Source of the DNA: Adineta ricciae
Taxonomy: Eukaryota; Rotifera; Eurotatoria; Adinetida; Adinetidae
NCBI GenBank assembly: GCA_905250025.1
Contig: CAJNOJ010000396.1
Location: 18,169-82,168 of the forward strand
Reading direction: 5' to 3'
DNA: 64,000 nt
The notes beneath the pieces were generated by a model. The model was not told where the DNA came from, did not search any database, and saw only the letters and a list, made by a program, of their open reading frames with translations. The position numbers were made by a program, and so were the translations under genes. Of this stretch, positions 8,536-56,440 are shown piece after piece (within the stretch, counting starts at the first letter, position 1; each line of letters begins with the position of its first letter).

Positions 8536-9547
8536 TGTTTAGTTTATTTTCTCTTTATTATTGATCGACGAGTTTAAACTGGAAAAGACTTCTTTTTTGT
8601 CACCAGTACGCGTAATTCAAGTGACGAACTTTAATAAATTGTGAATATGTTTTATTATTCATTGCATCGTGTATTCGTACAATGCAAACGAAAGACGAAT
8701 CATCTTCAAAAAAGTGAAACTGGATGAAGAATTTTCAAGATGGTCTTCCTCGTGTGTTAAAATCGAACTTCCCACCCAGGAAATGAGTAACTGCCTAATT
8801 CGACCTATAATATAAACTTAGAATTCGTCATACAATTTCATACGTATCTAAGAATTGATTTAGTTATATATATATATCCCTACACACCCATCTCTTACTA
8901 AATCTATTCCTAAACTTACATAAATAGATATGCATATGTATTTATACTTGAATTGATATGAATCTGTCAAAAGTCCATTTATATAATAAAGGTCGAATTA
9001 GTCAATTCATAAGTGTGAAATATATTTATGGGTATTTGAACATTCTGCTCTATTTGATGAAAAAGACGTTTCTATATCGTGATTATTTCCGACTTTCTAC
9101 ATAGAAAGATGATGGATGACTAACTAAACACAGAAGGAGAAAAAGTGAATGTTCTTAGTCGCTGAAAAGATTTTATTTGGACAATAGGACGATTTACGTG
9201 TACAATATTTGATGAAACCATCGATTCAGAAACATGTACAGTAAACCTAGTTCGATGGGTAGGTTTTTAGATAAATCTGCACAGATCTACTGAGAACATT
9301 CGCTACAGAATGCTCTTGACAGTGTTCTTTGTCATCAATCATCGTCTGTTATATATGAATAAAAAATCTAAAGTCACGCGATCATTCGTTGTTTCTTAGA
9401 TTATAGAAAGGTATATTTAGCATAAAGTTATGACGCCAGTCATTTAAGTCTTTTTCGTAATAAATCATTTTGCATAAAAAGGACTTTCTTGAGTTGATTT
9501 CATAATTTAATCTTTCTTTCTCAATCGACGTGTACCTTAAAATTACA
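8536..9547. other. Intergenic, A+T-rich
   Basis: About 1 kb between the NHL relic and the first two-span membrane gene. A short (TA)n run lies at about 8,864-8,878. No other feature seen. Confidence 0.5.
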
Positions 9548-10873
9548 ATGGATATAACAAATTCCTTAAAGCGTTTTATTCGTCGGCTGCTAATTTCTGT
9601 TAGAGAACTTAATTTATTTTCCACATTCGAAGATGATGATTCCCATGAACTTCGTAATCAAATTCTTGCTACACGTATTTATCTTAGTTTGTTAATCGTT
9701 TCTGTACTAAGTCTTTGTATTTATACATCACTTGTCTCAATTACGGAAACGATCATTATTGACAAACCCACATATAAACAATATCAAAAACTCATCGAAA
9801 ATAATCACAATCCTCAATGTCAATGTAAATACATCTCAATAGTTTATGATCAATTTATTGATTTACAAGCAGTTTTTCATCCTGTCTGTTCATCGGATTT
9901 TGTTAGCGACAAATGGATTTATTTTCTGCATGGTTTAGATGACGAATCGTATAGCAAGACTAAAGATTTTCATCGCAATGCCGTATATTCTTTTGGACTG
10001 CTTCGTTCCTTATGTGAATTGGCTAAAACAACCGTTAACGAAAATGTCCAACAACAACTACCATTGAAATCTTATATCACCTCTCACGTCAAAGGAGTCG
10101 ATGGATTTTTTAAAGAAATTTTCTCATTTCTTGACACCCTTATTCTAACAGAAGAAACAAAGTTAACACAGTTACTGACAATATTCCGTCGTCTTATCAT
10201 TACACAAGAACTCATCTCCACACAATCAACAAATATTCGGTTGTTTGCAGAAACATCGTCCTTGATGCCAGGACAACAGCGAAATCCTACCGTTACAACG
10301 CGGACCTATTATCATAAAAAAGTCGAAACACGCTGTGACTGCAGACGTTCCACATGTGTTGAAGAATATATACTTGAAAGTGTGAAAAATAAAAATATTC
10401 TGTTCATCATTCCAAATTTCTATCAAGGTTGTTTTATTACCGATTCGTTACTTCAATCGAGTCTTACTTATTTCTACAATAAAACATGCATTGAACAACT
10501 ATTATTTCATCTAAACTCTTCATTGATTATTACTCCAATCAATTTAAATTTGTCATCAAAAAAATTATTAAATATTGACGAAACTGTTGACGAACTAATT
10601 AATCATTTGATGGTCTATGAATGGAATAAAAGTATTAGTTTTATGAAATATTATGAATTATGTGAGCCACTTCAATGCATTTACACATATAATCATCGAT
10701 TTGTTATAACTTATGTTATTACCATTCTTTTGGGTCTTCTTGGTGGTTTAGTAACTGTACTTCGAATTTTGGTTCCATTCGTTATACGAATGATTAGAAA
10801 GAAGCGAAAAGACAATGATATACGTAAGTATTGGACCTGTTTAAAAAACATGTTATTGAAAACTGTCGTGTAA
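9548..10873 (+). CDS. Two-span Cys-rich membrane protein, paralogue 1
   Basis: 441 aa from the ATG at 9,548 (context ACAATGG). The open frame extends a few codons upstream but without another ATG. A short cytoplasmic N-terminus ending RELNLF is followed by membrane span 1 (about 41-64), then a large loop of about 320 residues with paired cysteines (CQCKYIS, HPVCSSDFVSDKW, CDCRRSTC, CEPLQC), then span 2 (about 386-412, containing LLGLLGGL) and a basic tail. Two spans and a Cys-rich ectodomain resemble DEG/ENaC or P2X topology, but I see no diagnostic signature, so the function is unknown. First of three tandem same-strand paralogues. Confidence 0.8.
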   Translation: MDITNSLKRFIRRLLISVRELNLFSTFEDDDSHELRNQILATRIYLSLLIVSVLSLCIYTSLVSITETIIIDKPTYKQYQKLIENNHNPQCQCKYISIVYDQFIDLQAVFHPVCSSDFVSDKWIYFLHGLDDESYSKTKDFHRNAVYSFGLLRSLCELAKTTVNENVQQQLPLKSYITSHVKGVDGFFKEIFSFLDTLILTEETKLTQLLTIFRRLIITQELISTQSTNIRLFAETSSLMPGQQRNPTVTTRTYYHKKVETRCDCRRSTCVEEYILESVKNKNILFIIPNFYQGCFITDSLLQSSLTYFYNKTCIEQLLFHLNSSLIITPINLNLSSKKLLNIDETVDELINHLMVYEWNKSISFMKYYELCEPLQCIYTYNHRFVITYVITILLGLLGGLVTVLRILVPFVIRMIRKKRKDNDIRKYWTCLKNMLLKTVV

Positions 10874-11089
10874 AATCGTTATTTTCATAGTAGATTTCGT
10901 GTATCAACATTAGAAAATTTAGATTAATATTTAGTTTCGAAAGCATTCGGAGTTTGTGCTTTGTCCAATGATACGAGACTTGTAACTCAGATTTGGAAGG
11001 AGATGGTTTCGTTATCGAATAACGAAACGATAAAGAAACAGAAAATGAGCAAATTGATGTTTTCCGCTTTTCTTTTTTTCATATCTTAG

Positions 11090-12462
11090 GTATCTCCAAG
11101 CGATTATGGTTGAAGGAGAAAATAAAAAATTTCAATTTGTTCAAATCGATTCCACCTTCAAAAGATTATGAAATCATTTATCCTCAAGTTGTGTCTACAT
11201 ATCTTTATATAATTGTATTTCTTTTATCATTTGTTGTTCTCATCATTTATACATCACTCTTAACACAAACAGTTACTGTCATTGTTCGTTCACCATCGAT
11301 TGAACAATATGAACGATTGAAAGATCAACATTCGGATACTCTTATATGTGAATGTACACAAATTTCGATTGATTTACAAACATTTATTCAGTTATCACCT
11401 GAATATCATCAAATTTGTACGAGTATTTATGTCACAGATGAATGGTATAACTATTTGCGCAGTTTTACTATTTTCAATGGTACATCTGAAGACATAGGTA
11501 TACTTCCCTTTGACTTTCGTGCAACAACTGGCCCGAGTTTCTTTCGTACACTTGAGTTGTTTTGTAAGATTGTGGATGATATTATTCAGAATCATCTCAA
11601 AATATTTAATTCAACTATTTATGTCACAGGAACAGTCGAGGAAAGGTTGAATTTTCTCGAACAACATAATCAAAGTGTTCAGTTATTTAAAAGCACAATT
11701 CAAAATACCTTCTTCTCTTCTTTAGAAATGTTTTTTGATATTTTACATGGCAATACTCTCTTTTCTTGGTCAATGACAAATCATATGATAACTCTCCGGT
11801 CTTTACCATTCTTATCTATTGTAATGGCAACAAGAACTTATGATGAAAATTGTGTATGTGTGTACAGTGGTAAAACCTGCTTTGAGCCAGCACGTATCTT
11901 CCATCTATATTACAACGGTACTAAGATCGATCACGAACGTTGGACCGTTCCATACATTTACAGCGGATGTTACATATTAACAGGTGTCATGGCTTCTGAT
12001 TTACGATGTTTATATCATCCATCATGTCTATCTGAATTAATCAAAAATATCCGACCAACGTACAAAATGAATGCTAGTCTATTAAAAGAACATTCATCAA
12101 CTTCGAAATTTAACTCACGAACACCAATTTTCTTATTGATTCGCGAAGCCATGGTTGAACGATGGAAGGAGAATATTAGTTATGAGCAATACTATGAAAA
12201 ATGTAATCCAAAACGATGTACATATACATATGCACAACGATTTCTTATCGGTTATATAATTTCAACAGTTTTTGGTATTGTTGGTGGATTATCATCGATA
12301 CTGAGATTAATCATACCGAATTTAGTACAATTTGCCAAGAAAATGTTGAAGAAAATAAGAAATGAAGATGATAACAATGATCAGGACGACGAAGAAAATC
12401 CAAGAAGTATGAGTTTTCAATCATCTTCTCTCTACACAGCCATTTCGGTTATAATCTGTTGA
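11090..12462 (+). CDS. Two-span Cys-rich membrane protein, paralogue 2
   Basis: The main exon encodes about 457 aa and begins after a likely splice acceptor (cttag at 11,085-11,089). No in-frame ATG lies at the expected place, so a short upstream first exon, which I could not locate, must supply the start. It matches paralogue 1 in order: NLF before span 1, span 1 (STYLYIIVFLLSFVVLIIYT), a QTVTVIV and CECTQIS segment, CTSIYVTDEW, CVCVYSGKTC, CNPKRCTYTYAQRF, span 2 with GIVGGL, and a longer acidic/Ser-rich tail. The function is unknown; channel-like topology is possible. Confidence 0.75.
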
Positions 12463-12962
12463 ATTCGAGAATAGATTAGAAAAACGATATTTAATAAGTT
12501 AAACGGGAGATAGAAGAACTCTTTTCCACCCAGATGGCTTTGATATATTATGAGCTTAATGACTTTTCGTTCAGGATTATTGTAAATTCATCCTGATGAT
12601 ATTTCCAATCATTTACTGAGAGAAAACTTAACAAAACGCTTGGTTATTGTACTGAAAAATGGCACTTTTTTCTAACGACCGGATATCTTCGTAGAAACGT
12701 TAAAAACACGCATATTTTGTTATATGATAGTTCAAGATTATCTCTGATGATATCAGAAGATAAGAAATGCGAATAATCAATTGCGTTTGACAACTGTTTT
12801 AGTATCACTTTTCCTTCAATGAAACATCTCAACTTTTAAAGAAACATATACATAACAAAATTGAATCGAGGTCTTAATCGTTGTCCGCTGATAGGTTTTC
12901 TATTCGAACTCGAGTGACGCATCTGCTCAAAATTTGATTATGTTGATTTTTTAAATTTGTAG

Positions 12963-14335
12963 ACTTTAACGATCGATTACGCAAATTTTCTTCGAAAATA
13001 ATCATATTTATTAAAACTTTGAATCTTTTTCAACATCCATCTTCAAAAATTCCCCCATCAAGACCAATTTTCGAATATGAAAAGGTTCTTCAATTGAAAT
13101 TACAAATAAGTTCCACACGTCTTTATATATTTCTCTTATTTTTCTCCTTAATTGTGACTTCTATTTATGCTTTTCTACAACGAACAAATGAAAGAAAAAT
13201 CTATTCCATCTCATCTTACATCGAATATGAAAATTTACAAAATAAATTTCCTTCAAATTCATTCTTTTGTCCATGTACAACAGTCGGAAGTGAATATTCG
13301 ACATTTATTTCACTTCGACCAAAAATTATACATCCAGCCTGTACGAATTATCTATTTCGGGCTGCTTGGATAGTTGATTTCGTTAGCTTTGAATTTGCAC
13401 CAATTGAAGAAAATTTACGTATAATTTTGATTTATTATTTGCCATTAGCATCTCAACTTTGTATGCAAAGTCAGACAATCATTCAATATAATGTTAAACA
13501 ATTTCTAAATACAATTTATACAACATCATTTCTGACTAATAGAGAAGAATTTGAAAAATATTTTCATACCCAAATTGAACAATTGAAACAAAGTTTACCC
13601 TCGGAACTTAAACGAATTATGAAAATCAGTAGTATTATCACTTCAGCAAATAGTTTGATGAGTGCAGCAAAAACAAATTATGAATGGATGTTTATGAGTT
13701 CCACGGGAGAACAAATTGGTTTTCCTATGATTGGTGATATTATTCTCATAAGAACAAAAGTAAAATATTATTCAAACCAAAATTATTCATGTAAAATCTT
13801 CTCCCAATCCTTTAAACAACAAATCAATTGGCCAGGTACTACAATTCCTATTCCAGGATTATATCTTAGTTGTTATTTTGCCGATGGTTTACTTCAATCT
13901 ACTTTTCAATGTTTCTATGATATCAATTGTTTAGAATCTTTACAATTCTATACATCATCTATGGCTCCTATTCAGACATGGGTACTGCCAATGCCATCGA
14001 AAACTTCTCTTTATCAAATCAATTCAACAGTACAAGATTTGGTTAATGTTTTGTTCGTTGAAGAATGGTTTAGTCATATAAGTTATGAATTATATTATCA
14101 ACAATGTCAACCAAAACAATGTTATTATACATTTATTCGAAGATCTACAATAAATTACATTATTATAATGGTAATCACTGTTTTGGGTGGTTTACATAAA
14201 GTATTACCGGTAATAATACCCGTATTAATTCGAATTTCTCACAAAATAATAATCAAATTCAAAAAGCGAAGATTTCGTCGACAACCAAGAAAAATCAATC
14301 GAATTAATCCAAGAATTCCATCATTCATTACATAA
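12963..14335 (+). CDS. Two-span Cys-rich membrane protein, paralogue 3
   Basis: The exon opens after a likely acceptor (ttgtag ending 12,962) and encodes about 457 aa. As in paralogue 2 the start codon lies in an unidentified upstream exon. Same architecture: NLF, span 1 (TRLYIFLLFFSLIVTSIYAF), CPCTTVG, HPACTNYLF, CYFADGLLQSTF, CQPKQCYYTFIRR, span 2 (about 40 residues before a strongly basic KKRRFRRQPRK tail). It is the most diverged of the three. The tandem arrangement with 240- to 500-bp spacers points to local duplication. Confidence 0.75.
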
Positions 14336-14984
14336 ATGTGTCATATAATTACATATGCGCTTTTATCGATATTCTTTTGCTTTGATGTGTGCTGAACTTT
14401 CTTTTTAGTCACTTTTTTCTCATATATAACATATATTTATCAAGAAAGGATAAAAATTATGAAACTGATGATTTCGTTTTATTTTAAAGAAGTTTTTACA
14501 CTTTGTCAATACCTTTGCTTTTATGATAATGGTTATAACGATGACGAAGACCATTTAAACAGATCATTTATCTTAAGTCAAAATCAGTTCTCTATTCTTT
14601 CATTTTCAATTTCAACTTATTGTTTCGTTTTTCTTCGGAATTTAATTTCACCAAATAAAATAAATCATTCTTAAATATCATGCTTTTCTGTTATTATAAT
14701 TCTTAATAATGTTATCATACTTACATGAGAAATATTGTTAAAATCGAATTATCCATCCAGTCAATTAAACACAAAAGTCCTTTCATTATCTCATCATACG
14801 TATTATCGACTTTTCTATTTAAAGCAATGAATTCAGCGATAGGAAATTACAATGAATAAAAAGTTTCCAACGTTGAAGATTTATTTTCTTCATTCCTTTT
14901 TTCTCTCTTCCCATTTGGCATCTTAAACATGTTTTTGTTCTCACCCGTTCTTTCTCTCCGCATCAAATGTTTACGCGAGCGATG
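14336..14984. other. Intergenic before the duplicated block
   Basis: A+T-rich with poly-T tracts. A 71-codon open frame at 14,459-14,674 has no coding resemblance. The right end marks the start of homology with 46,043 onward. Confidence 0.45.
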
Positions 14985-16198
14985 GCCTCTACTACGTAGA
15001 GCTAAGACTTTTGCAGATGCATTCAACAGACTGGCTAATGATGCATCAATATCAGTAGCTATTGATCAGTAGTTCAATGAATTTAATCATTAGTTCGTTT
15101 TATACGTTCAACTAAATAACTCTCAGAAATGGGTATAGATGTCATCCGCAAAGCTCGATACGTTGAAGCAGCACATCTTTTTTCTTTATTCATTGACAAT
15201 ATGGAAGAATAAAATCGACCTCTCTATACCATTTCTAATTTATTCGTATCGTTTTCCAGTGCTATGATATTTTTTATAGTTTAGTTACCATTGGTGAACT
15301 CGCTTATTTTACAAATGCCAGTACAAGCACTCTTAGTCACTCCTATTTAATCACAGCCATCATCAGTCAGTATTTCTTTCCTGTTTTCTATCAACTTAAA
15401 TCTCTGCGAACATTTCGTGTTTATTGGATTATTATAGCTCTCACCTGTACCATTAGTTTCCTAACTTTACTACCATCATATTTCATAGGTGACTATATTT
15501 CTGTTTGACACCAAAATTGGAATCATTGATGATTCTAGACACAAATCAATATTTCGATGAAACACATACATATGTGGTATACGTTTCAATATCTATAAGA
15601 TGAATGTCGAATGCTTTTGTATGTGTGACATATGTCATACCTTACAGTGAGATCGCTTTGATATATTTCTATATTATTCGATGAACGCAGTAAACTAATG
15701 TTGCCATTGTTAGTACCACCGGTTCATTGTTAACTGTACCCAGAAACTCTACAAGTATTATTTATTTTCAATAACAACAAAAGCGTGAGAAACATTGTAT
15801 ATAATCGTGTACGAGAACAAGACGGTGAACGAAATTTCTAGTGTGATTTAGAACACAAGTGTAATTACAATTTTTCTTTTGATTACGCAGTCATCGGATT
15901 CTCCTTCTTGCCTTCTCGTATCGACCTTTATATCGTATATTTCTTGCCTTCACTCTCAACTGCTAGTATATTAACGTCGTGATGTTTTTTTGCTTTCACA
16001 ATATTCCTTTTCTATTTGCAAGTTGTTTAAATTCATCAACAGTGTCGTTTTTTCTGTTTCAAAACGTGCTCTTGTTCTCTTTCTTCCTTTTTGTATGTGT
16101 TGAAAGAAGAAAATTCCAACATAGATTATTACTTCTAAATAACAATTGTCGCATCGAACAATATAAAGAGAAGCGTTTTTCGAATTTCCACATTATAA
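14985..16198 (+). other. Upstream region of the PARG gene with coding relics
   Basis: About 1.2 kb before the PARG gene, shared with copy B. It starts with a degenerate reading frame (RAKTFADAFNRLANDASIS, with stops). Around 15,280-15,485 there is an open stretch of membrane-protein character (FFPVFYQLKSLRTFRVYWII and LTCTISFLTLLP) that is broken in copy B. These look like pieces of dead genes; I cannot name the families. A TATAAAG-like element lies at about 16,162, some 37 bp before the start codon. Confidence 0.35.
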
Positions 16199-19100
16199 AT
16201 GTCTCATCCATCCAAAAAAAGTGATTGCTTCATATGCCAATATCCATTGAAATCTGACGAAACTAAAATTACCACCGAATGTGGTCACAGCTATCACCGT
16301 CGTTGCGCTCAAAAATACTATGACGAGAAAGGTCATAGTGCCTGTATGGTGTGTAAGAAGTCGTCAGCTTTAGCCAAGGCGCTTCAAGGACATGTCACTG
16401 CAAGTACTGCTACATCTTCAGCCCGACGTTCTGGTAAACCAATGGATCATGTATGTTTATTCGTTTTGACTTGATTGAGAATAGAATTGTAACGAATGAA
16501 GAATTCCATCTTCAAAACTGAGAAAAACGACCTCATATAAATTTTTCCCTTTATCTCACATTTACAGGAGGAAGAAGCAATATGGTCTTGTGAGTATTGC
16601 ACATTAGAGAATCCGTCATCGGCTGAAAGATGTGAAGCTTGTGGTGCACCACGGCATGTTGTATCTGCAGCTCGTCGTCGGAGAACAACAGCACATCCGA
16701 ATGTTGATGTGAACGATCGAGATTCACAGTCGGATGAAGAGAAGAATGAATATGATCGAGGTCGTGGGGAAAACTGTGCTCCTAAAACAGATCCTGATTC
16801 ACGTTCTACATCTGACAGAAAAGAAAAGCCTACGTCAACGGCATCTGGATCTGACGCTATCGTGTACATCCCAGATCTTCCTACGACTACTGATGATAAC
16901 GATCAATTGGAACAACTGATTCGTCATCGTATTGAAAAAGTGACAAAATTGAAAGTTGGCATGATCAAATGTTATTCAAAACTAGGTGTTGCTATGATAT
17001 ACGTTGACACAGATGAAACAAGAGATCAACTTGTTAACGATATCGTACATATAACTTTAGATCCAGGGGTGGGAAAAGCTACAATTACATTTACTGAAGA
17101 ACTTGAAATAGTGTCATATGTTGTCGCAGAAGTCGCCAATGAAAAGAAGGATATTTTGTTACCAACATCAGAGGAAATTCGTCGTCATTGGAGGAAACTA
17201 TACAAAGGAGAAACGCCATGCTCATGTGAACAGTTGCATATGGAATTTCCGAATATATACAAGGTTACTTCCAGGTCTTTGGATGAATTACTTAAGGTGG
17301 CGAATCATCCAGATTTCAAAATTAATGATATATTCGCTCAAGTCTACGTACGTGCTAATTGTAGTTTCTTCGAACATCTAACTGAATCGATCACAGAGGA
17401 TCAACTGCGTAAAGCGGTGTGCAAAGAAATTAAAATGCCGAACGTATCATCTACAACAGTTTGTGTTCAGTTGAACAAACAAACACACAACGCTTGTGTC
17501 ATCACGACGAGTGAAGCACGCGCTTGGTCTACAATCAACTATCTAACGATTAACGGCACGGTATTTCCGAAGAAAGTTAATTTAATCCGTCGCCTGTGTA
17601 TTTATCCAATCCCTTCATCGTTTAATACTCAAAAGATTTTGAATCACAAAGAATTCAAGGGAAAAGTACTCGATCATAAACAGCAGGGAAACACTCTCAT
17701 TCTCGAACTATCCGATGAAGCACTTTTTACCGAATGCGTCGCGCTTGGAGTTATTCGTATTGGCGATAGCGACCGTTTTCAAATAGGTGCCTATGTTGCA
17801 TCGAGCAAAACAGCTAGCGATGAAATTGACGAAGACACGTGGTATAAGACAGAAATGCCTCAATATAAACCTAACATAATGCAATTCATTTCTGATCCCG
17901 ATCATCAGATTTTCCGATACAAATGGAACCCACAGATATGGTTGAAACAATTTAATCAAACCATTGGTGAAAAGAATGATGAGAGACAAGCACGTGATCG
18001 AAGGCATACACCAAGCGATGTTACACGTCATCGATTACGGGTTACAGCAATGTTAAATACACTTGCAGTTGTGCGAAAGAAGAGCTACATGATACGTGAT
18101 CGAAAGTTTCAATTAAATGTCGATAAAAGCATGAAAACGATTGTTTATGATGAACAATCAATGTTGGAGAAAGGAGGGAAATTACCGATAACAAAACCAC
18201 CTTATCCCGAGACGCGTATTGATGTGGTCAACGAAGACTGTCTGATAGCTTATGAGCGTTTGGTTAAGGAACACTACAGACCACTTCTCCTTAATATGGC
18301 CAATGCTTCAAAACCCGGTGGTGGGTATCGAAAAGGTGATGGCGCACAGGAAGAAAATCTCTTCCGTCGATCCGACTACTTTCGAAGCCTTGACGTTGGC
18401 CTCGACCAATGGTTATCAGAACGAAGTGCCCGTTATCATTGCTCGTCGACTTGCCAACTTGACCGACTGTCCGACGAAGACAAGATGTATCCAATGCACG
18501 AGTACGGAGCGATCTACACCTCAGGCTTGACCGTCTTTCGTCAACCAGAAAACACTGGCTATAGTTTTATGGAAGAACCACTTAAAAACGTGTGTTCTTT
18601 AGCTATGGCTGCTTATTCAGGCCCGAGACTAAATGGAAATATGCTTGCGTCAAAGTTTGCTGTGGGAACACGAAAAAAGATTGAAAATATCTTCGCTATT
18701 GCTTTTCGGCACAAACACGATAGTTTAGTATTATCGGCTCTAGGCTGTGGTGCTTTCAAAAATCCACCAGGCCATGTGGCAGAACTTTTCCGTTCGGTCA
18801 TCGAGCAGTATGCCGGTTTCTTCCGACGAATTACTTTTGCTATTCTGGATGATCACAATAGTGGTCGATTCTTCAATCCGGAGGGTAATTTTCAACCATT
18901 TGTAGCTCTTCTCGATGGAGTGGTCATCACTCCATTGTCACCAATGAGCACGCCACTGACTATATTTGGACCGTATCGATTATTATCCGATGGAGTGACT
19001 ACAAGCGATGTGTGTATCTGCAATAAACTACTGTGCAAATTTGGTGCTACCTGTTTTGAACTTTCTGATCGTACACATGCGAAAGAATACTTTCATCCAC

Positions 19101-22100
19101 CTCGTTGTCCATATGTAGCTACGAAAGGTAAATGCCCCTTGACCGACAATGTTGTTCATATGCATTCATTCGTACATCGAGCTCACTGTCGATACGGTGG
19201 AGAGTGCCGAGAAATCGATGATGAGAAGCATGCTCGCGAATTTGAACACCCTTCCAGCTGTCCAGATGGAGGCAAATGCGGTAGTACAAGTGATGAACAT
19301 TTAAAACAATATCGACATTTACCATTATGTGAAGACGGTTTACAATGTCTCAAATTTAAGAGGCATGATCAAGCTCACTGTGACACATGTCGTCACTGTG
19401 TCTTGAATTGTCCCTTTGGAAGTCATTGTACTTATATTCACAGTAAACAGCATCGAGACAAGTATGCACATCCAGTACCTCCACCATGTCAATTCACTCC
19501 ATTTAGTTGTAAATTATATACTAAATATCTACACTGTGGAGATCGTAAAAACCTCGATGAATATATTCAAAATCATTGTCTCGATTCTGCTCACATCTGC
19601 CCATTGGGTCGTAATTGTCAAGATAAGGATGAACTACATTTAGAAAAAACTATCCATATTCCAAGATATATGTGTCCTGATGATGATAAATGCACTAAAC
19701 TTACCAATGAAGATCATCTTAATACGTATACGCACTCTAAAGTTCCTGATATCCGAGAATTGTGTAAATATGCGGATGGATGCTTTGACCGTCGCAAAGC
19801 AGAGCATGTGACAGAATATCGACATGCAGCTAGATTTGAACATAGTGGTATTTTAAGTTATTTTAATATGAATAACGGAATTAATTTTGTGGAAAATCAA
19901 AAAAATATGATTGAACGTATCATTCAATATGTAAAAGATCAAAAGTGGATTCCATTACCATCGTGGACTGTGCCGGATGATATTCTCAATTGGATACGCA
20001 CTGTTCAACCAGTTCACCGGTGTAATCAAGTTATTTTTGAATCTATTCTTCTTCACGGACACGTAATGAGTCGTGAATATATGTTAAATTTGAAAAAGGC
20101 GAACTTTGTTGCTAATTCCGTTCTACAACACAGTCGAATGAGGTGCGTCCGTGAGCTACAAGAAAAAGTAGTTGCTGAACACGCCAAAATGTATGTTACT
20201 GCTTTAGTTCAACGTTATTTTGCATCAAAAGGGTTCATAGGTGGGAAGATCCCTGATGCTACTGCTGGGCCTCCCGTTCCATCAGCGGATATTCAGGATG
20301 AACTGACATCGTTGGAACGTGATATTGCGAAACAGGAAACATTTTTATCGAATGCACTAAGTAGAAAAGATTTGGAAGCGATACGTATTAAGTCGGATGA
20401 GATTGCTGAAGCATCAATCAATCTTCATACAAACCGTGCAGGTATTGGCTACAGTTCGGATAAACACCTTGGTACCGACAAAACAGTTTTCAGTATTATG
20501 GGACCACACCTAGGACACTATTATGGCGATATATTTGTTGTGTTTAAACGTGATATTCTTCATCATCCCGATGCAAACTTCACCGTTCAAGCAGCGACAT
20601 CTATTGTAAGCGGAAGTGCTTTTGACTTACGACCATGGCTAGGGACTCATCCGGTTACGATCGAGGAACAAATTGAATTCTTTAATAAATGTAAATTGAA
20701 CTGTTCCATTCCGGGCTATGAACATGCAGCTGCACTTGAGTTAATCGCATTCACAAGTCAGCATTTTGGATTAAAGTCAATGAACATCACCCTCGATAAA
20801 ATTCTTGAACGATGGTTCGAAGTTGATTCACATTTAACAATCGAAGGACATTTGCCACAACTAATTCCTCTCAGTTATATCGAACATATCTATATTCCAC
20901 AGAATCTTTACAGTTCACTTAGTGTGACCTCACAAAAGACAATGCGTGCGACTTTTAAAAACTCTTTTACCCTAGTTCCACATGATGGTGTACCCATTCA
21001 ACCACAAAAGCCACATGGTCCAAAACCGCCTACACAACCTCGTGAAGAATTACAAAATTTCGTTGTTGAAAAGTTACTTAAGAGATTCATCGAACGTGCT
21101 CAAAATCCATCATGGACAACTGTTCGAGGCGCTGCGATTACAATGCCATTCACTGATTTTACTGATACTTATCTCTTGCCTCTAACAATTTCGCAAGCAT
21201 ATCAACAATACTTTAATGCTAATCATCATCGGCCAAAAGATGAAGTGTATTATGTTTACTGGCAAGTCGTCGGTGGAGATATGATTTTAACATTGTCCAA
21301 TGAATCAGTTTTGTCGAAAGAGACCAAGTCGAATCTTCGCTGCTTAAGTTGTTATATCGCGGGAAAAGGTCCATCAAGTGACATAACTTATCATGAACAC
21401 TTTTCATATATTAACGATAGTTCTCCATTTCAACATCCTGTTCTGAGAGAACGCGGTAGATTCGCAGCAAAATCTAATCAGTTTTTTGTCGGTTGTAACA
21501 CTGATTATCTAGTGACGTTTTGTCTTGAAGTTCAATTGGCGGATGGAACGGTTACACTTTCACATGCTGGTCCGAATTCTATTTATAATCACGAAAAGAT
21601 TTCCTTTCAATTCGATCAATCTCGATTGGCTCTAGAAGACTTGGAATATATCCATATAAGTTGTGGCTCTCGCGTAGTTCCAGTTCGAAATCTGATTGTT
21701 AGTTTTGAAAAACAACCTCATTTGCATCCGACGTTCGACAAAGATTTCGCTAGGGTTCCTTCGGCAAGCTCAAAGGAACCGACTCAATTCAATATTGTAC
21801 CACAAAAACGAAACAAAACACCCGAGTTAATTCCTTGTCATGATAATGTCAACTGTCTTCTTCAACACTCTAGACGTCGCGGACCAGCTCACAATGCAGT
21901 ATATTCTCATCCGTGTTCGTTTTCCGAGCTTTGCGTTGCGAAAGAAGCACACTTGACACACGAGCCTCGTAATTCACCAATATGCAATCACGACAAGAAG
22001 TGCAAACAAATCAACGACCCATTTCATCGAGCGGAATGCCGTCATACCAATCTACCCGACTTCCTTATTCCATGTCGTTATCAAACTACCTGTTATGATG

Positions 22101-22294
22101 ACTCATTCGAACATCGGATCGAATTTTCGCATGGCGAACAAGTTTATAAGAAGTCTGGTTCTTCTTCTTCAGCGTCGAAAGAACGTAGAGATCATGATGA
22201 CGCGCTAATACCATGTAGATATGGATCAAAATGTAAGGGTATTAACAGTTCTAAGCATTGTCGAGAGTATTCTCATCCCAAGAGCGATAAATAA
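16199..22294 (+). CDS. RING / RanBP2-ZnF / PARG / PBZ-array fusion protein
   Basis: Two exons, 16199-16450 and 16568-22294, with a 117-nt phase-0 intron, encode 1,992 aa. Residues about 11-58 are a RING-H2 finger (CFIC, CGHSYHRRC, CMVC). Residues 90-113 are a RanBP2-type finger (W-x-C-x2-C-x3-N-x6-C-x2-C). About 180-265 may be an RRM-like fold. About 540-800 is a microbial-type poly(ADP-ribose) glycohydrolase domain with GGG at 668-670 and QEE at 678-680, plus GCGAFKNPP. From about 907 to 1,140 and again from 1,841 to 1,988 there are about 14 fingers of the C-x5-C-x6/7-H-x5-H type (for example CRYGSKC), which fit the PAR-binding PBZ pattern. Residues about 1,376-1,830 form conserved regions I do not recognise. 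Inferred role: binding and removing poly(ADP-ribose), perhaps with ubiquitin ligase activity, in the nucleus. It converges on the GPCR gene 61 bp downstream. Confidence 0.85.
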
Positions 22295-22355
22295 TCCGTG
22301 GAAATGACTATATTTTCAATAAATAAGAGACTAATAGTTGATACATGCAAACGAC

Positions 22356-23261
22356 TTATTTGGGTGCGATCGGTGTAACTTGATTAGTTCGAAAGAATAG
22401 ACATTTTTTGAGAACATCTCGAATATCTCGATCGATAAGTAATGAAACAAGTTTCTCAACCATAACTGTAAATGAAACACTTACAATTCCGATCGAATAA
22501 AAGAGTTCCACGTTTGTTAACATATAGAATAACGAAGGTACTGCTCCGAGTACGTAAATACTAAGCAAAATCATTATCTTGCGAAAGACTGTCAAATCGA
22601 GATTCTTTCGTTTTCTTTGATCTAGTACAATTGAGTTCTTATTAGCATGTGAATGTACTCGTTTGTAAATCAAAATGTAAATCACAATAATTAATACGAT
22701 CGGTAGTAAATAATACATTATAATCGTGTAAATAACGTGTAACATAAATCGCTTTGGTACCCAACAAAGAAAACCTTGACGGTAATAAATATCTTTGGTC
22801 ATAATTGCTGGTAATGGGACAAGAAATACAATGATCCAGCCAATGAAAATCAAATAGAAATGCACTCTGAACGAAACTATCCAGCGATATTTAATGGAAA
22901 GAATGGTAAAGAACAATCTCGATATGGCTTGTAAAAGGTATGAATAAATAACAGCAACGATAGATGTGTATCCAAAATAACCCCGCCACCGGCAAGATTC
23001 ATCACTTATGTTCCATTTAACGAATAGCAGATAAATATAATTATTACATTGAACAATACAGTACAAGATTGATGCTATACACGTGTTACAGGTTAACAAG
23101 TGACTGACTGTATGCAGTTGTTTGGTTGAAATAACTAATATTAATATCAAAATAGAGAGAACTATAGCAACGAGTGCAAATACCATTGAGATTGGTGCAA
23201 CAGTATCATAATTTGTAGAACTGCTTGAAAAATTTGTCCCTGTTCCTGTGAGAGAAGTCAT
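22356..23261 (-). CDS. Rhodopsin-like seven-span GPCR (copy A)
   Basis: Single-exon gene, 301 aa, starting at ATG 23,261. A short Ser/Thr-rich N-terminus (NFS glycosylation site) is followed by seven hydrophobic spans. Conserved cysteines sit before span 3 (ESCRWRG) and in loop 2 (GFLCWVP), giving the usual disulfide. The E/DRY site at the end of span 3 reads SRL. Span 7 lacks a clear NPxxY, and the tail is short. This fits the large intronless bdelloid class of peptide- or chemoreceptor-like family A GPCRs; the ligand is unknown. It shares a divergent promoter region of about 715 bp with the CipC gene. Confidence 0.85.
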   Translation of the reverse strand: MTSLTGTGTNFSSSSTNYDTVAPISMVFALVAIVLSILILILVISTKQLHTVSHLLTCNTCIASILYCIVQCNNYIYLLFVKWNISDESCRWRGYFGYTSIVAVIYSYLLQAISRLFFTILSIKYRWIVSFRVHFYLIFIGWIIVFLVPLPAIMTKDIYYRQGFLCWVPKRFMLHVIYTIIMYYLLPIVLIIVIYILIYKRVHSHANKNSIVLDQRKRKNLDLTVFRKIMILLSIYVLGAVPSLFYMLTNVELFYSIGIVSVSFTVMVEKLVSLLIDRDIRDVLKKCLFFRTNQVTPIAPK

Positions 23262-23976
23262 TTTTCACTGAAATCGAACTATGAAGCCGAAGAAGTCAAG
23301 ATAAGTAGGTCATTCAACCAGATCATGACATAGAAATGGCGCAGTTGTAATTTTATTCTTTTGAAAAAAAGTTACATTTCCTTCTATTGGAGAGCAGCGT
23401 GAATGTAAGTTAGATGATAATAACACGTTCACATATTACTCATAAAAAGTCACGTAATTGTTTTATGATGTGGAAGATGCATTGAAGTGCACGCGCAATT
23501 TGGTACTAGCAAGGTCAAATAAATATCCTCGAATATTATTCGTATTTTTTTAATTTCAAACGATTGAGAGTAGTCTGTCATCTCGTTTCATTGAGTCAAA
23601 ACTTGAGTAAATCATTGGGTGGAAGAGTATGGGCGTGTGTACCATTTTGATTTCCATCATCATAAACCTGTATTTGCGTTTGATTCATGATATATGCTGC
23701 TTTCAAAGTTTTCTTTCGTACCCAACATAGGAGAGGAATATATGAAATAAACGATCGTTTTTAATGGCGAACGTTACTCGTGAGGAGAAGACAAAAATAA
23801 CTCTTACATACACACCACCGTTTCTTTTCCTGTTTATTTTTATGCCAAAGTAATGACCTTTCGTTCTTATAAAAGTACATTACGAGAGTAAATAGACTAG
23901 CTGGTAGTGAGGAATATATAAAGCTGCCTATTTTTCTGGCTTTTATTCATTCGTAATCGATACAGCGACTCAAACG
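23262..23976. promoter_or_regulatory. Divergent intergenic region, GPCR (-) and CipC (+)
   Basis: About 715 bp between two divergently transcribed genes, conserved in copy B. A TATA box (TATATAAAG, 23,915-23,923) lies 54 bp upstream of the CipC start codon and is identical in copy B (58,004-58,012). Another TATAAAAG-like element is at about 23,871. Confidence 0.5.
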
Positions 23977-24377
23977 ATGAATCTGAACGATAGCGAGGAA
24001 TCTTACAACAAAGTTTATGCTGGTGAACATCATCACAAAAAACACTGGACACATGAATTAGTCGCTGCAGCTGCTGGTTTCGCTGGTAAACTTTCTCTCT
24101 TTCGATTTTAATTTTTTAAATTATTTTATGTTTAGCAATGAAAGAGTATGAAGATTACTGCCGAAATAATGGTGAGACAATCTCGCATGGTAAAATGAAA
24201 GAATTGCTTGCTGCTTTTGCGGCTGCGGAAGTCGACAAATTAGTCGAGACGAAAGGTCTCGACTTTCTTGATCAAGAAAAACTGAAACACCTCGCTGCTC
24301 ATCAGGCACACGCGTTAGCAAATGAAAAATATGGAGAAGGTCAGGTAGGACCCGGCAGTGGGCAAAATGATTATTAG
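23977..24377 (+). CDS. CipC-like protein (DUF3759), copy A
   Basis: Two exons, 23977-24085 and 24136-24377, with a 50-nt GT-AG intron, encode 116 aa. The sequence fits the CipC/DUF3759 family best known from filamentous fungi: an N-terminal ESYNKVY segment, HKKHWTHELVAAAAGFAAMK, a Gly/His turn (NGETISHGKMKELLAAF), then AAAEVDKLVETKGLDFLD and a charged HQAHALANEKY end. The family was named from an antibiotic-response protein; its biochemical role is unknown. It is cytosolic by sequence, with no signal or span. The strong nearby TATA box suggests inducible high expression. Horizontal transfer from fungi is plausible. It converges on the protease gene 143 bp away. Confidence 0.85.
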
Positions 24378-24520
24378 AACTGAATATTCGAACGAAGAGA
24401 ATTACTTTATTTTATTCAATAAATCTGTATTAAAATCGAATCTTTTCTATCATCTTTCTCTCAAAAATGCGATTCACTGTGATATTTCATAAAGCTGTCA
24501 ATATTTTCAAGTTGGTGCAG

Positions 24521-26356
<1,836 letters not shown>

Positions 26357-45920: not shown

Positions 45921-47076
45921 CCAGGAAAACATTTTTCTGCCGATGACTAAGATTAGCAGAAAGTGTTTACAGTTATTTACTATCAACAAAAAAAAACAAA
46001 GAAAAGAAAAACAAGATCAATAAAATGTCGCACATGTGGTCTCTGCTTCGTAGAGCTAAGACTTTTGCAGATGCGTTCAACAGACTGGCCAATGATGCAT
46101 CAATATCAGTATAGCTATTGATCAGTAGCTCAATGAATTTAATCATTAGTTCATTTTATACGTTCAACTAAAGAACTCTCAGAAATGGATATAGATGTCA
46201 TTCGCAAAGCTTGATACGTTGAAGCAGCACATCTTTTTTCTTTATTCATTGACAATACGAATGAATAAAATCGACCTCTTTATACCATTTCTAATTTATT
46301 CGTATCGTTTTCCAGTGCTATGATATTTTTTATAGTTTAATTACCATTGGTGAGCTCGCTTATTTTACAAATGCCAGTACAAGCACTCTTATTCAATCAC
46401 AGACATCATCAGTGAGTATTTCTTTTCTGTTCTCTATCAGCGTTAATCTCTACACACATGTCGTGTTCATTGGATCATTACAGCTCTCATATGCGTCATA
46501 CCTTAGTGATATCGCTCTATAATGTTTCTATATTATTCCATGAACGCAGTAAACTAATGTTGCCATTGCTGGTACGAGTGGTTCATCGTTAACTGCACCC
46601 AGAAACTCTAAAAGTATTATTTATTCTCACTAACAGGAAAAGCGTGAGAAACATTGTATATATTCGTGTACGAGAACAAGACGGTGAACGAAATGTTTAG
46701 TGCGAGTTAGAACACAAGCGTAATTACAATTTTTCTTTTGATTGCGCAGTCATCAGATTCTCCTTCTTGCCTTCTTATATCGACCTTTATATCGTTTATG
46801 TCTTTCCTTCACCCTCAGTTGCTGATGGTATATTATAACGTCGTGATGTTTTTTGCTTTTACAATACTCCTTTTCTATTTGCAAGTTCTTTAAATTCATC
46901 AACAGTGTCGTTTTTTTCTGTTTCAAAACGTGCTCTTGTTCTCTTTCTTCCTTTTTGTATGTGCTGAAAGAAGAAAATTCCAACATATTCTATTACTTCT
47001 AAATAACAATATAATCTTTTAACTTCTCGCATCGAACAATATAGAGAGAAGCGTTTTTCGAATTTTCACATTATAA

Positions 47077-50000
47077 ATGTCTCATCCATCTAAAAAAAGT
47101 GATTGCTTCATATGCCAATATCCGTTGAAATCCGACGAGACCAAAATTACCACCGAATGTGGTCACAGCTATCATCGTCGTTGTGCTCAAAAATACTATG
47201 ACGAGAAAGGTCATAGTGCCTGTGTGATGTGTAAGAAGTCATCAGCTTTAGCCAAGGCGCTTCAAGGACATGTCACTACAAGTACTGCTACATCTTCAGC
47301 CCGACGTTCTGGTAAACCAATGGATCATGTATGTTTATTCGTTTTGACTTGATTGAGAATAGAATTGTAACAAATGAAGAATTCCATCTTCAAAACTGAG
47401 AAAAACGNGCACGAGTACGGAGCGATCTACACCTCAGGCTTGACCGTCTTTCGTCAACCAGAAAACACTGGCTATAGTTTTATGGAAGAACCACTTAAAA
47501 ACGTGTGTTCTTTAGCTATGGCTGCTTATTCAGGCCCGAGACTAAATGGAAATATGCTTGCGTCAAAGTTTGCTGTGGGAACACGAAAAAAGATTGAAAA
47601 TATCTTCGCTGTTGCTTTTCAGCACAAACACGATAGTTTAGTATTATCAGCGCTAGGCTGTGGTGCTTTCAAGAATCCACCAGGCCATGTGGCAGAACTT
47701 TTCCGTTCGGTCATCGAGCAGTATGCCGGTTTCTTCCGACGAATTACTTTTGCTATATTGGATGATCACAATAGTGGTCGGTTCTTCAATCCAGAGGGTA
47801 ATTTTCAACCATTTGTAACTCTTCTCGACGGAGTGGTCATCACTCCATTATCACCAATGAACACGCCACTGACTATATTTGGACCGTACCGATTATTGTC
47901 CGACGGGTTGACTACAAGTGACGTGTGTATCTGCAATAAACTACTGTGCACATTTGGTGCTACCTGTTTTGAACTTTCTGATCGTACACATGCGAAAGAA
48001 TACTCTCATCCACCTCGTTGCCCATATGTTGCTACGAAAGGTAAGTGTGACTTCACCGATAATATTGTCCATATGCATTCATTCGTGCATCGAACTCACT
48101 GTCGATACGGTGGAGAATGTCGAGAAATCAACGATGACAAACATACTCACGAATTTGAACATCCGGCTGCTTGTCCACATGGAAGCAAATGTGATGATGC
48201 GAGCGACGAGCATTTAAAACAGTATCGGCATTTACCACTATGTAAAGACGGCTTACAGTGTCTCGAATTTAAGACGCATGAAAAAGTTCACTGTAACACA
48301 TATCGTCACTGCGTTTTCGATTGTCCGTATGGAAGTAATTGTGCCTATATTCACGATAAACAGCACCGAGACAGGTATGTGCATCCAACACCTCCACCAT
48401 GCTCCTTCACTCCATTCAGTTGTAAATTATATACTGTATTTCTGCACTGTGACGATCGGAAAAAGCTCGATGAAGATATTCTACGCCATTGCCTTGATTT
48501 TACTCACATTTGCTCATTGGGTCGTAATTGTCAAGATAAGGATAGACTACACCTGGAAAAAACGATTCACATCCCAAGATATATGTGTCCTGACGGTGAC
48601 AAGTGTACTAAACTTACCAATGAGGATCATCTTAATACATTTACACATCCTGGAATTCCTGATATTAGAGAATTATGTAAATATGCTGATAAATGCTTCC
48701 ACCGTCGCGATGCAGAACATGCGGCTGTGTACCGACATGCAGCAAGATTTGAACATAGTGGTATTTTAAGTTATTTTAATATGAACAGCGGAATTGACTT
48801 TGTAGAAAATCAAAAAAATCTAACTGAGCGCATTATTCAATATGTAAAAGATAACAACTGGACCCCATTACCATCATGGACTGTACCAGATAACATTCTC
48901 AATTGGATACGCACTGTTCAACCTGTACATCGATGTAATCAAGTTATTTTTGAATCTATTCTTCTTCACGGACACGTAATGAGTCGTGAATATATGTTAA
49001 ATTTGAAAAAGCCGAACTTTGTTGCTAATTCCGTTCTACAACACAGTCGAATGAGGTGCGTCCGTGAGCTACAAGAAAAAGTAGTTGCTGAACACGCCAA
49101 AATGTATGTTACTGCTTTAGTTCAGCGTTATGTTACATCAAAGGGTTTCACTGGTGGAAAGATCCCTGATGCTACTGCTGGGCCTCCCGTTCCATCAGCG
49201 GATATTCAGGATGAACTGACATCGTTGGAAAGTGATATTGCGAAACAGGAAACATTTTTATCGAATGCACTAAGTAGAAAAGATTTGGAAGCGATACGTA
49301 TTAAGTCGGATGAGATTGCTGAAGCATCAATCAATCTTCATACAAACCGTGCAGGTATTGGCTACAGTTCGGATAAACACCTTGGTACCGACAAAACAGT
49401 TTTCAGTATTCTTGGACCCCATCTGGGACATTATTATGGAGATATATTTATTGTCTTTAAGCGTGACATTCTTCATCACCCCGATGCCAATTTTACCATT
49501 CAAGCAGCGACATCTATTGCGAGTGGAAGCGCTTTTCAATTACGACCATGGTTAGGTACTCACCCAGCTACGATCCAGGAACAAATTGAATTCTTTAACA
49601 AATGTAAATTGAACTGTTCTATTCCAGGTTACGAATATGCAGCTGCACTTGAATTGATAGCATTCACAAGTCAGCACTTTGCATTAAATTCAATGAACAC
49701 AACCCTCGATAAAATTCTTGAGCGATGGTTCAATGTGGATTCTCATTTGACGATCGAAGGACATTTGCCGCAACTGATCCCATTGAGTTACATCGAACAT
49801 ATCTACATTCCACAAAATCTTTACGATTCACTTAGCGTAACTTCGCAGAAGACAATGCATGCGACCTTTAAAAACTCGTTTACTCTAGTTCCACATGATG
49901 GTATACCTGTTCAACCACAAAATCCACATGGTCCGAAGCCACCAACACAATCTCGTGAAGACTTGCAAAATTTTGTTGTCGAGGAGCTACGTAAGAAATT

Positions 50001-51204
50001 CATCGAACGTGTTCGAAATCCATCATGGACATCTGTCCAAGGCGCCGCGATTACAATGCCATTCACTGATTTTGCTGATACTTATGTCTTACCTCTAACA
50101 ATTTCACAAGCATATCAACAGTATTGTTACGCTAATCATCATCGGCCAAAGGGCAAAGCGTATTATATTTACTGGCAAGTCGTCGGTGGGGATATGATCT
50201 TAACATTGTCGAATAAATCAGTTTTGTCCAAAGAAACCAAGTCGAATCTTCGATGCTTAAGTTGTTATATCGCGGGAAAAGGTCCATCGAGTGATACAAC
50301 TTATCATGAATACTTTTCATATATCAATGGTAGTTCTCCATTTCAACATCCTGTTCTGAGAGAACATGGTAAATTCGCTGCGAAATCTAATCAATTTTTT
50401 GTCGGTTGTAATACCGATTATCTGATGACATTTTGTCTTGAAGTTCAATTCGCAGATGGAACGGTTACACTTTCACATGCTGGTCCGAATTCCATTTATA
50501 ATCATGAAAAGATTTCCTTTCAATCCGATAAAACCCAACTAGACTTAGAAGATTTGGAATACATTCATATAAGTTGCGGTTCCCGCATAGTTCCAGTTCG
50601 AAATTTAATGGTTTGTTTTGAAAAACAACCTGATTTGCATCCGACATTCGACAAAGATTTCAGTAGCATTCCTTCGGCAAGCTCCAAGGAGCCGACTCAC
50701 TTCAATATTGTACCACAAAAACGAAACAAAACAACCGAGTTAATTCCTTGTCACGATAATGTCAACTGTCTTCTTCAACACTCTAGACGTCGCGGACCAG
50801 CTCACAATGCAGTATATTCTCATCCATGTTCGTTCTCCGAACTGTGCGCTGCGAAAGAAGCACACTTGACACACGAGCCTCATAATTCACCAATGTGCAA
50901 ACACGACAAGAAGTGCAAACAGATCAACGACCCATTTCATCGAGCGGAATGCCGTCATGCCAATCTACCGGACTTCCTTATACCATGTCGTCATCAAAAT
51001 ACCTGTTACGATGATTCATTCGAACATCGGACCGAATTTTCGCATGGCGAACAAGTTTATAAGAAGTCTAGTTCTTCTTCGGCGTCAAAAGAACGTAGAG
51101 GTCATGATGACGCGCTAATACCATGTAGATATGGTTCCAAATGTAAGGGTATTAACAGTTCTAAGCATTGCCGAGAGTATTCTCATCTCAAGAGCGATGA
51201 ATAG
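47077..51204 (+). CDS. RING/PARG/PBZ fusion protein, copy B, with internal gap
   Basis: The RING exon 47077-47328 is intact (84 codons, nearly identical to copy A). The following intron runs into an N at 47,407. The frame resumes at 47,409 with HEYGAIYTSG, inside the PARG domain, and continues open to 51,204. Compared with copy A about 1,964 bp are absent: the RanBP2 finger, the RRM-like region and the GGG-x7-QEE catalytic signature. The gap character suggests missing assembly rather than a real deletion. The PBZ-like fingers, the unknown central region and the C-terminal fingers are all present and the Cys/His residues are kept despite many other substitutions, which implies selection on the fingers. 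Confidence 0.75.
47407..47407. other. Assembly gap (single N)
   Basis: Joins intron 1 of the PARG gene (equivalent to about 16,533 in copy A) directly to the PARG domain (about 18,496 in copy A). Confidence 0.8.
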
Positions 51205-51309
51205 TCCGTGGAAATGACTATATTTTCAATAAATAAGAGACTAATAGTTGATACATGCAAACGACTTATTTGGGTGCGATCGGTGTAACTTGATTAGTTC
51301 GAAAGAATA

Positions 51310-51330
51310 NNNNNNNNNNNNNNNNNNNNN
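51310..51330. other. Assembly gap (21 N)
   Basis: Interrupts the 3' end of the GPCR gene. The 55 bp before it (51,255-51,309) recur exactly at 56,430-56,484, where the intact GPCR copy starts. Confidence 0.9.
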
Positions 51331-52060
<730 letters not shown>

Positions 52061-53798: not shown

Positions 53799-54584
53799 TC
53801 AAAAGTACGATCGCAGTACGGCAATTACAACAAAAGTCCACAAAATGTCAGATGCACGAAATACAGTGTTTCCTCCTTGTGTAGCCGTTTTTTGCTCTGT
53901 TGTTGTACTTACAGTTGTATTTAGTCTCGCCGTCATCGTAGTTGTGTTAGTGGTCGCTGTTATATTTACTGTTGTTCTTGACACTGCGCTCATCGTGCTT
54001 GTTATTGTTGTTGTCGTCACCGCTTTGGTCGCAGTTGCAGTAGTCGTCGTACCGGCAGTTGTTGTTGTTGCTGTTCCAAGAAACAGAGATGAATCAACCG
54101 TCGGCGTCCAGTTGTATGAAGCTGATTTTGCAAAACCCACACGATTGTTGTTGATATCAAAGATCGCGTAGTACCAATACAGAAAATAGTCGCCCAAAAN
54201 TGTACCGATGTAGATGGTTCCATAGAAGTATGCCTACACGAGAGATGTGTTGATAAGCGCGAAGCATAAAAAAGAATAAGAAGTTACATCAGCTTCGTTG
54301 ACAAGACTTTCGAAAGCTGAAGACTTGACAACAGCAACTTTGCCGAAGGTTGGTGATATCCTGTTGCATACTGTGACGTTGTTTTGGAAAACAGTACAGT
54401 TTTGAGTTGATGAAGAGCGTGATTGTACACGAGTGATGGGAATTCTGAGAAGAATAGAAAGGAATGAATAGGAATATGTTTCCTAACGAAGAACTCACTT
54501 TAATAGTTGACTAGCACCCATTTCATAGGAGGAAACTATGAGGATAAGTAGTTTAAACATTGCCTTGGTCATGTTGAGACTCAT
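53799..54584 (-). pseudogene. Aspartic protease paralogue with GPI-type tail, middle missing
   Basis: The N-terminal part runs from ATG 54,584 (signal peptide with AMFKLLILIVSSYEMGAS) to an N at 54,200. The C-terminal part (54,199-53,799) starts in the last exon (GDYFLYWYYAIFD, VGFAKSASYNWTP). It has a long Thr-rich stalk and ends in a hydrophobic segment (DILWTFVVIAVLRSYF) typical of a GPI-anchor signal. About 1.1 kb of middle exons, including the second catalytic Asp, is lost at the N. It may be an intact gene that is badly assembled. Confidence 0.6.
54200..54200. other. Assembly gap (single N)
   Basis: Joins the last protease exon to an N-terminal protease exon; in copy A these are about 1.13 kb apart (about 24,862 and 25,995). 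Confidence 0.8.
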
Positions 54585-55439: not shown

Positions 55440-55745
55440 AAGCAATGTACGTCTTTTTCTTATGATAGTTCACTGATGGCATGTTCGAATTCAAATCGAT
55501 ATGGTTTAATTATTCTTGGTAATAGTGGCGTCGATAAACGTTTCTTAGCGACTATACTTCTGGATAGAGACGTATTCAAACACTAGTTTTCTGTTCAATC
55601 AATTATACATGGAACTGAATTTGAAGAGATCGTTTTTGAAAACGATCGGTATGCTATATCTAATATTCCATGTCTAATTGAAGTGAATCAAGCATTGCAA
55701 TCTATGAAACTTTCGAAAACCGCTGTTTTTTATCTCTCTACTTAG
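55440..55745 (+). pseudogene. P-loop GTPase-like relic, copy 2
   Basis: Plus strand reads NRYGLIILGNSGVDKRFLAT and ILLDRDVFKH, then a stop. It resumes with TEFEEIVFENDRYAISNIPCL and IEVNQALQSMKLSKTAVFYL. The P-loop Gly-x-Gly-Lys is degraded (GVDK). It corresponds to copy 1 at 52,905 and shows that the protease-plus-spacer unit was duplicated. Confidence 0.45.
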
Positions 55746-56428: not shown

Positions 56429-56429
56429 N
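56429..56429. other. Assembly gap (single N)
   Basis: Joins the protease last exon to the 3' end of the GPCR gene, which repeats 51,255-51,309 exactly. Confidence 0.8.
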
Positions 56430-56440
56430 ATGCAAACGAC

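Follow-up and report, generated by a model that had tools for sequence, protein, structure and literature searches.

A bdelloid rotifer gene joining a RING-H2 finger, a microbial-type PARG domain and arrays of PBZ-like zinc fingers

Whether one animal protein can carry both an eraser of poly(ADP-ribose) (PAR) and the head of a ubiquitin ligase, and whether the zinc fingers that accompany them still read PAR, are the questions raised by a gene at positions 16199-22294 (forward strand) of a 64,000-nucleotide stretch of the bdelloid rotifer Adineta ricciae (contig CAJNOJ010000396.1, positions 18,169 to 82,168), the whole of which is called the window hereafter. An earlier note on this DNA had described one protein with a PARG domain, many PAR-reading PBZ fingers and a RING finger, and had remarked that PARG does not normally occur fused to such fingers. 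Our analysis supports a single predicted gene that joins RING and PARG, as the note had proposed. The novelty argument proved half right: a PARG with several PBZ repeats has been reported from Adineta vaga in a passage of a published survey (Perina 2014, PMC4245714, citing Slade 2011), and the eraser-PBZ fusion is thus already known from a bdelloid, while the RING and RanBP2-type (NZF) head on a PAR eraser is the part that we did not find described.

The gene comprises two exons and its predicted product has 1992 amino acids. Its limits coincide exactly with those given in the earlier note, since the ATG at 16199 directly follows an in-frame TAA and the stop codon ends at 22294. Exon 2 is an uninterrupted frame of 1908 codons, which the RING exon joins in frame, and since no in-frame ATG lies in exon 2 between the preceding stop and the NZF, the NZF can only be made with a coding exon upstream. 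The order of the predicted domains is RING-H2, NZF/RanBP2-type finger, a possible RRM, microbial-type PARG, an array of ten fingers, about 670 residues without a domain match and an array of five fingers (Table 1). The assignment of RING and PARG to one gene is supported because of the splice and frame evidence and because the RING exon and its donor recur in a second copy of the gene, and the same canonical phase-0 splicing, frame and second copy led us to reject two separate genes. It is very unlikely that the PARG protein is made without RING, with the RING exon being part of a different gene or serving as an alternative first exon; the link is predicted from the sequence, and with the intron retained the frame of exon 1 continues for 24 nucleotides including a TGA, but the NZF requires an upstream coding exon, the splice sites are canonical and of phase 0, and the same exon and donor are found in the second copy. 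We give hardly any credence to an assembly chimaera joining domains of different genes in error: the scaffold does have N gaps, one of them cutting the second copy, but there is no N within 16199-22294, 1908 codons form one frame, and the order from residue 728 to residue 1992 is repeated in the second copy.

This second copy (47077-51201), which the earlier note did not describe, is broken by an assembly gap and belongs to a colinear duplicate, at 46-64 kb, of the region at roughly 15-30 kb. The duplicated block (14983-29941 and 46037-64000, in the same orientation) also carries G-protein-coupled receptor, aspartyl-protease fragment and MACPF genes, is 90-93% identical at the DNA level across its main blocks and contains short N gaps; it may have arisen by segmental duplication in tandem, or two homologous haplotypes may have been placed on one scaffold. 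Over 1348 codons, the Nei-Gojobori comparison of the two copies gave 0.305 synonymous substitutions per synonymous site (dS) and 0.055 non-synonymous ones (dN), for a dN/dS ratio (omega) of 0.18. A published study reports two A. ricciae scaffolds with homologous blocks in tandem and mean Ks values of 0.135 for homologues and 1.267 for ohnologues (PMC5916493), and the dS of the pair is above the homologue mean and far closer to it than to the ohnologue mean. The RING exon alone has an omega of 0.099, with eight synonymous and three non-synonymous changes (Fisher p 4e-4), and the first finger array is the fastest-changing segment (79% amino acid identity, dS 0.49; segment ratios in Table 1). Moreover, in the 13 regular fingers every zinc ligand is identical in the second copy (52/52), against 185/227 of the other finger residues (p 8e-5). 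Along the gene (18497-22291 vs 47410-51201), dS is uneven, with values between 0.08 and 0.49, the donor and the first 79 nucleotides of the intron are present in the second copy with 78/79 identical, and the 105 nucleotides 3' of the stop are identical; because of this unevenness and of the near-identity of the intron stretch and flank, the alignment suggests patchy gene conversion between the copies. Given such identity outside the coding frame, similarity alone is no evidence of constraint, and it is the synonymous comparison that counts.

The PARG domain matched PF10021 (4.2e-21, 76.3 bits vs a cut-off of 23.5) and TIGR02452 (1.7e-27, 96.6 bits vs a cut-off of 50), and its GGG-x7-QEE catalytic loop is complete, in agreement with the microbial-type signature recognized in the earlier note. 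Among PAR glycohydrolases of the PDB, the domain aligned with 3sig (1.2e-14) and with 5zdg-type chains (2e-13), which are TcPARG and DrPARG, respectively. When the domain was aligned with five phage PARGs, the GGG, QEE and GCG-x-F positions proved conserved, and GGG...QEE and GCG-x-F are also matched in the alignments to solved bacterial PARGs.

From an alignment-guided scan for relatives of this domain, 80 stretches were kept on each side, the best of at least 575 confirmed in bacteria and of 105 confirmed in viral contigs, which together with the five phage loci formed a sample of 165 loci, none of them eukaryotic. The bacterial stretches kept showed 26-43% identity in the best segment and included, by name, Planctomycetaceae, Bacteroidales, Prevotella, Paludibacteraceae and Spirochaetales among the best relatives. 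The PARG open reading frame had a median length of 283.5 amino acids (160 complete frames), the loop pattern was present in 147 of the 165 loci, the RING pattern in none, and the finger pattern gave one isolated match; no bacterium or phage of this sample showed the multi-domain build of the rotifer protein. When viral and bacterial contigs were scanned with peptide patterns taken only from the rotifer PARG, no relative was confirmed, and the PHROGs and PADLOC searches returned no match. Besides, some very large phages carry PARG-family genes, Bacillus phage G (gp114) and the Lak phages among them, and at an E-value of 0.01 the family was found in 18 of 50,697 phage records.

At the N terminus, the RING matched PF13639 above its cut-off (5.4e-9, 36.6 bits vs 27.3), as expected from the earlier note, and all C3H2C3 ligands of a RING-H2 finger can be read off the sequence; its closest PDB matches were the RINGs of RNF38 and EL5 (about 4e-4). 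Taking the head, the PARG domain and the finger arrays together, we consider that the protein combines a PAR eraser with a ubiquitin-ligase head and uses its fingers for docking, a proposal to which we assign roughly even chances on the basis of its gene structure, domain matches, conserved loop and ligands and synonymous excess. The PARG domain would hydrolyse PAR made by the large PARP set of bdelloids, the finger arrays would tether the protein by many weak contacts to PAR, chromatin or nucleic acid, and the RING would recruit an E2 ubiquitin-conjugating enzyme while the NZF holds ubiquitin. Neighbours at the ADP-ribosylated site could then be ubiquitinated during erasure of the mark, and ubiquitination alongside erasure would limit the stay of the protein at the site. 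From the sequence features we infer that the protein hydrolyses PAR, docks multivalently and transfers ubiquitin, and that these activities are coupled; the link that the earlier note drew to the rebuilding of broken genomes is likewise inferred.

Several observations weigh against this proposal. The RING carries Tyr and Met where Trp and Pro are usual, although an Ile between C1 and C2 and a Lys after C8 are present. The RanBP2-type finger of the earlier note was recovered by PF00641 at 1.9e-5, with a score of 24.2 bits that falls under the cut-off of 27, and its PDB matches were weak, with TRABID, TAB2 and NPL4 foremost (E 0.039-0.047). Both structure models, one with the RRM-like block and one of the central region, were poor and usable as a hint only. 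Additionally, a passage that follows the account of the seven bacterial-type PARGs of Naegleria describes the signature of this type as variable and its function as speculative (Perina 2014, PMC4245714); unlike the variable signatures reported there, the rotifer motif is complete. Further points concern the fingers: few of them pass the PBZ cut-off singly, and all lack the arginine that contacts PAR.

By inspection the fingers number 15, of which 13 are regular CCHH and two irregular, close to the 14 or so of the earlier note. The strict motif C-x5-C-x6/7-H-x5-H occurs ten times (11 when relaxed to x5-9), while among 2000 shuffled sequences it was absent from 1977 and occurred once in 23. PF10283 matched the whole exon-2 protein at 3.9e-13 (49.5 bits, seven stretches); with the fingers scored singly (E up to 10), eight of the 15 matched (E 5.6e-6 to 0.017), only three exceeded the cut-off of 22.7 bits and the maximum was 26.6 bits, whereas two APLF fingers scored in the same way as positive control reached 58.6 and 50.0 bits. 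According to a passage on APLF, two tyrosines touch the adenine and one arginine touches the phosphate (Y381, Y386, R387; PMC6264785). The arginine (C2+2 of APLF) and the complete Tyr/Tyr/Arg triad are found in 0/15 rotifer fingers, the two tyrosine sites are both filled by Tyr or Phe in 3/15, and among the regular fingers Tyr or Phe occupies the first position (C1+2) in seven and the second in three; one of the tyrosines of finger 14 is His in the second copy. The fingers are, as judged from their residues, degenerate PBZs with a PBZ-like zinc scaffold, and as PAR readers they are putative, since the arginine is gone in all 15 and few have both aromatics. The zinc scaffold of the earlier note is thus borne out, while its many PAR-reading fingers are weakened by the missing contacts and the low single-finger scores. 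For finger 6, CCCH (PF00642) scored 20.1 bits (cut-off 20.5) and PBZ 19.5 bits, both under their cut-offs, and fingers 2 and 15 gave weaker CCCH matches (E 0.05-0.16). The CCCH reading was not adopted, since the candidate ligand Cys1025 of finger 6 is Tyr in the second copy; a CCCH fold may still apply to some fingers. A search for PBZ in one phage record found none and is uninformative, as the control search was equally blank in 14 genomes.

These data leave a substantial, though less than even, chance that the fingers no longer read PAR, being PBZ-descended zinc scaffolds or nucleic-acid binders, with the eraser-ligase brought in otherwise. The lost arginine, the rarity of paired aromatics, the histidine in finger 14, the low PBZ scores next to the APLF controls and the CCCH matches speak for it; the significant whole-protein match, the Tyr or Phe at C1+2 in 7/13 regular fingers, the avidity of many weak sites, which may suffice, and the failure of the CCCH reading through Cys1025 speak against it. 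The two readings overlap in everything except the role of the fingers. We regard as unlikely that, instead of a DNA-repair factor, the protein is an effector of immunity or antiviral defence that works through ADP-ribose and ubiquitin, analogous in function to DTX3L-PARP9. Its RING, RRM-like domain and macrodomain resemble the DTX3L-PARP9 system, the first finger array changes fastest (omega 0.24) and PARG relatives are common in bacteria and large phages; however, omega does not exceed 0.24 in any segment tested, so that an arms race is not apparent at this scale, and PBZ indicates DNA-damage proteins, being described in a passage of the PBZ survey as occurring mostly in DNA-damage-response proteins, often beside domains that also occur in PARPs, such as BRCT, RRM and RING (Perina 2014, PMC4245714).

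Table 1. Features of the gene and of its second copy in the window (residues in numbering of copy 1; omega, dN/dS between the copies).
Feature	Positions	Strand	Details
Exon 1	16199..16450	+	RING-H2 finger (residues 9-54), start codon
Intron, 117 nt, phase 0	16451..16567	+	ends GTATGT / TTTACAG, canonical
Exon 2	16568..22294	+	one open frame, residues 85-1992 and stop
NZF / RanBP2-type zinc finger	16583..16654	+	residues 90-113
Possible RRM-like domain	16847..17065	+	residues about 178-250, alignment-free AlphaFold2 model
Microbial-type PARG macrodomain	18050..18859	+	residues 579-848
Catalytic loop GGG...QEE	18317-18355	+	GGG residues 668-670, QEE 678-680
Finger array 1, ten C2H2 fingers	19034..19825	+	residues 907-1170; finger 7 irregular; omega 0.238
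Central region without domain match, strongly constrained	19841..20995	+	residues 1176-1560; omega 0.112
C-terminal region without domain match	21038..21760	+	residues 1575-1815; omega 0.193
Finger array 2, five C2H2 fingers	21836..22276	+	residues 1841-1987; finger 12 irregular; omega 0.229
AATAAA, possible polyadenylation signal	22318..22323	+	
Copy 2 RING exon	47077..47328	+	81/84 residues identical; same splice donor after it
Assembly gap, one N	47408	.	replaces stretch for residues 85-727 in copy 2
Copy 2, residues 728-1992	47410..51201	+	open frame, 88.7% identity (tblastn)

Other parts of the protein are less defined. The AlphaFold2 model built without alignment shows a beta-alpha-beta-beta-alpha-beta order at residues ~178-250, with a block pLDDT of 61-72 across residues 188-237, lower values at the ends and 35.6 for the whole model. 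Foldseek placed mostly RRMs on top, with antibody chains mixed in (best E 0.016, none at 0.001), and the Pfam scan of these residues gave no RRM match, so that the model is suggestive only of an RRM-like domain. No significant Pfam domain was detected between residues about 250 and 578, before PARG (parts scanned, 180-500 and 490-660). Residues 1176-1560 had a best, not significant, Pfam value of 0.27 and residues 1320-1545 no PDB match, and residues 1575-1815 had no Pfam match and a best PDB E-value of 0.7. Searches of plasmids and of 150 genomes from a single phylum did not find the central and C-terminal region, with a query that had no positive control, and peptide patterns of the central region confirmed no relative in viral contigs. 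It is highly improbable that residues 1176-1560 are a much diverged ADP-ribosyltransferase, which would unite the writing, reading and erasing of ADP-ribose with ubiquitin transfer in one chain. The idea arose after the sequence was seen, from a DarT-like pattern: residues 1320-1549 share with DarT a short GIGYS-like match and an E-x7-P-x6-I pattern, noted by eye. The hhalign comparison, run with 26 DarT sequences that included one identical pair, after an initial seven, gave a probability of 2.8% over 36 columns and a score of 21.2; among 200 column shuffles one reached this score, a post hoc figure, and the reversed sequence and eight other segments scored 10.9-15.3. A DarT-like domain is thus not supported by the profile-profile comparison.

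Elsewhere in the window, an 85-codon frame (24120-24374) matched PF12585 (DUF3759) at 4.3e-23 and, the family being mainly fungal, is a candidate for horizontal transfer. Two similar copies of a MACPF/perforin-domain protein lie at 27296-29104 (-) and 61354-63162 (-), the domain scan having been run on the first, and three consecutive frames of 455-479 amino acids at 9506-14332, alike by eye (hydrophobic near both ends, with cysteines between) and without a Pfam match at 0.001, are a possible lineage-specific tandem family. A tRNA scan returned none. The G+C content of the window is 35.68%, near the 35.6% published for A. ricciae and above the 30.8% of A. vaga (PMC5916493).

According to previous studies, bacterial-type PARGs occur in most eukaryotic supergroups and are far less widespread than the canonical type (PMC4245714), rotifers are listed among the eukaryotes with this type (DrPARG paper, PMC6445106), and 17 PARP genes of A. 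vaga were over-expressed 2.5 h after irradiation (PMC10809525). Four papers on bdelloid PBZ proteins or PARP induction (PMC6264785, PMC10665377, PMC10809525 and PMC12220480) do not contain the word 'glycohydrolase', and A. vaga appears in the relevant part of PMC3482391 only in connection with another domain. A RING-PARG fusion was not found in titles and abstract openings among the matches listed, most subscription journals being outside the coverage. In bdelloids, with these irradiation-induced PARP genes of A. vaga, the rotifer protein is a candidate PAR eraser.

The coupling of ADP-ribose to ubiquitin is known from proteins that read PAR and then ubiquitinate, such as CHFR and RNF146. If the head described here is an active ligase, ubiquitination would be coupled to the erasing of the mark instead of to its reading, and a single chain would become available as a system for the timing of ADP-ribose erasure relative to ubiquitination. 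Besides, the 13 regular PBZ-like fingers, with their ligands kept and their PAR contacts mostly gone, offer a natural series on the residues that PBZs need.

By analogy, the protein resembles CHFR and RNF146 in placing a PAR-reader-type module (here, PBZ-like fingers) and a RING ligase (here, a predicted one) in one chain, and differs in that these lack a PAR-hydrolysing domain, with one PBZ in CHFR and a WWE in RNF146. It shares with DTX3L-PARP9 the pairing of a ubiquitin ligase, again a predicted one here, with ADP-ribose macrodomains, but that system consists of two proteins whose macrodomains are readers, whereas the rotifer macrodomain is a PARG. With the tandem PBZ of APLF (PDB 2kqb and 2kuo) it has in common the C-x5-C...H-x5-H scaffold, and APLF differs in retaining the Tyr-Tyr-Arg contacts. 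The catalytic macrodomain, with its GGG...QEE and GCG-x-F loops, is like those of TcPARG, DrPARG and the phage PARGs, although the bacterial and phage proteins sampled are short and lack the RING pattern. A close counterpart is the PARG of A. vaga, in which a bdelloid eraser is likewise joined to PBZ repeats and which is possibly an orthologue or a member of the same family; the passage describing it names PBZ repeats only, with RING, RanBP2-type finger and RRM unmentioned there (PMC4245714), and it is the RING and NZF head that sets the A. ricciae protein apart from that description.

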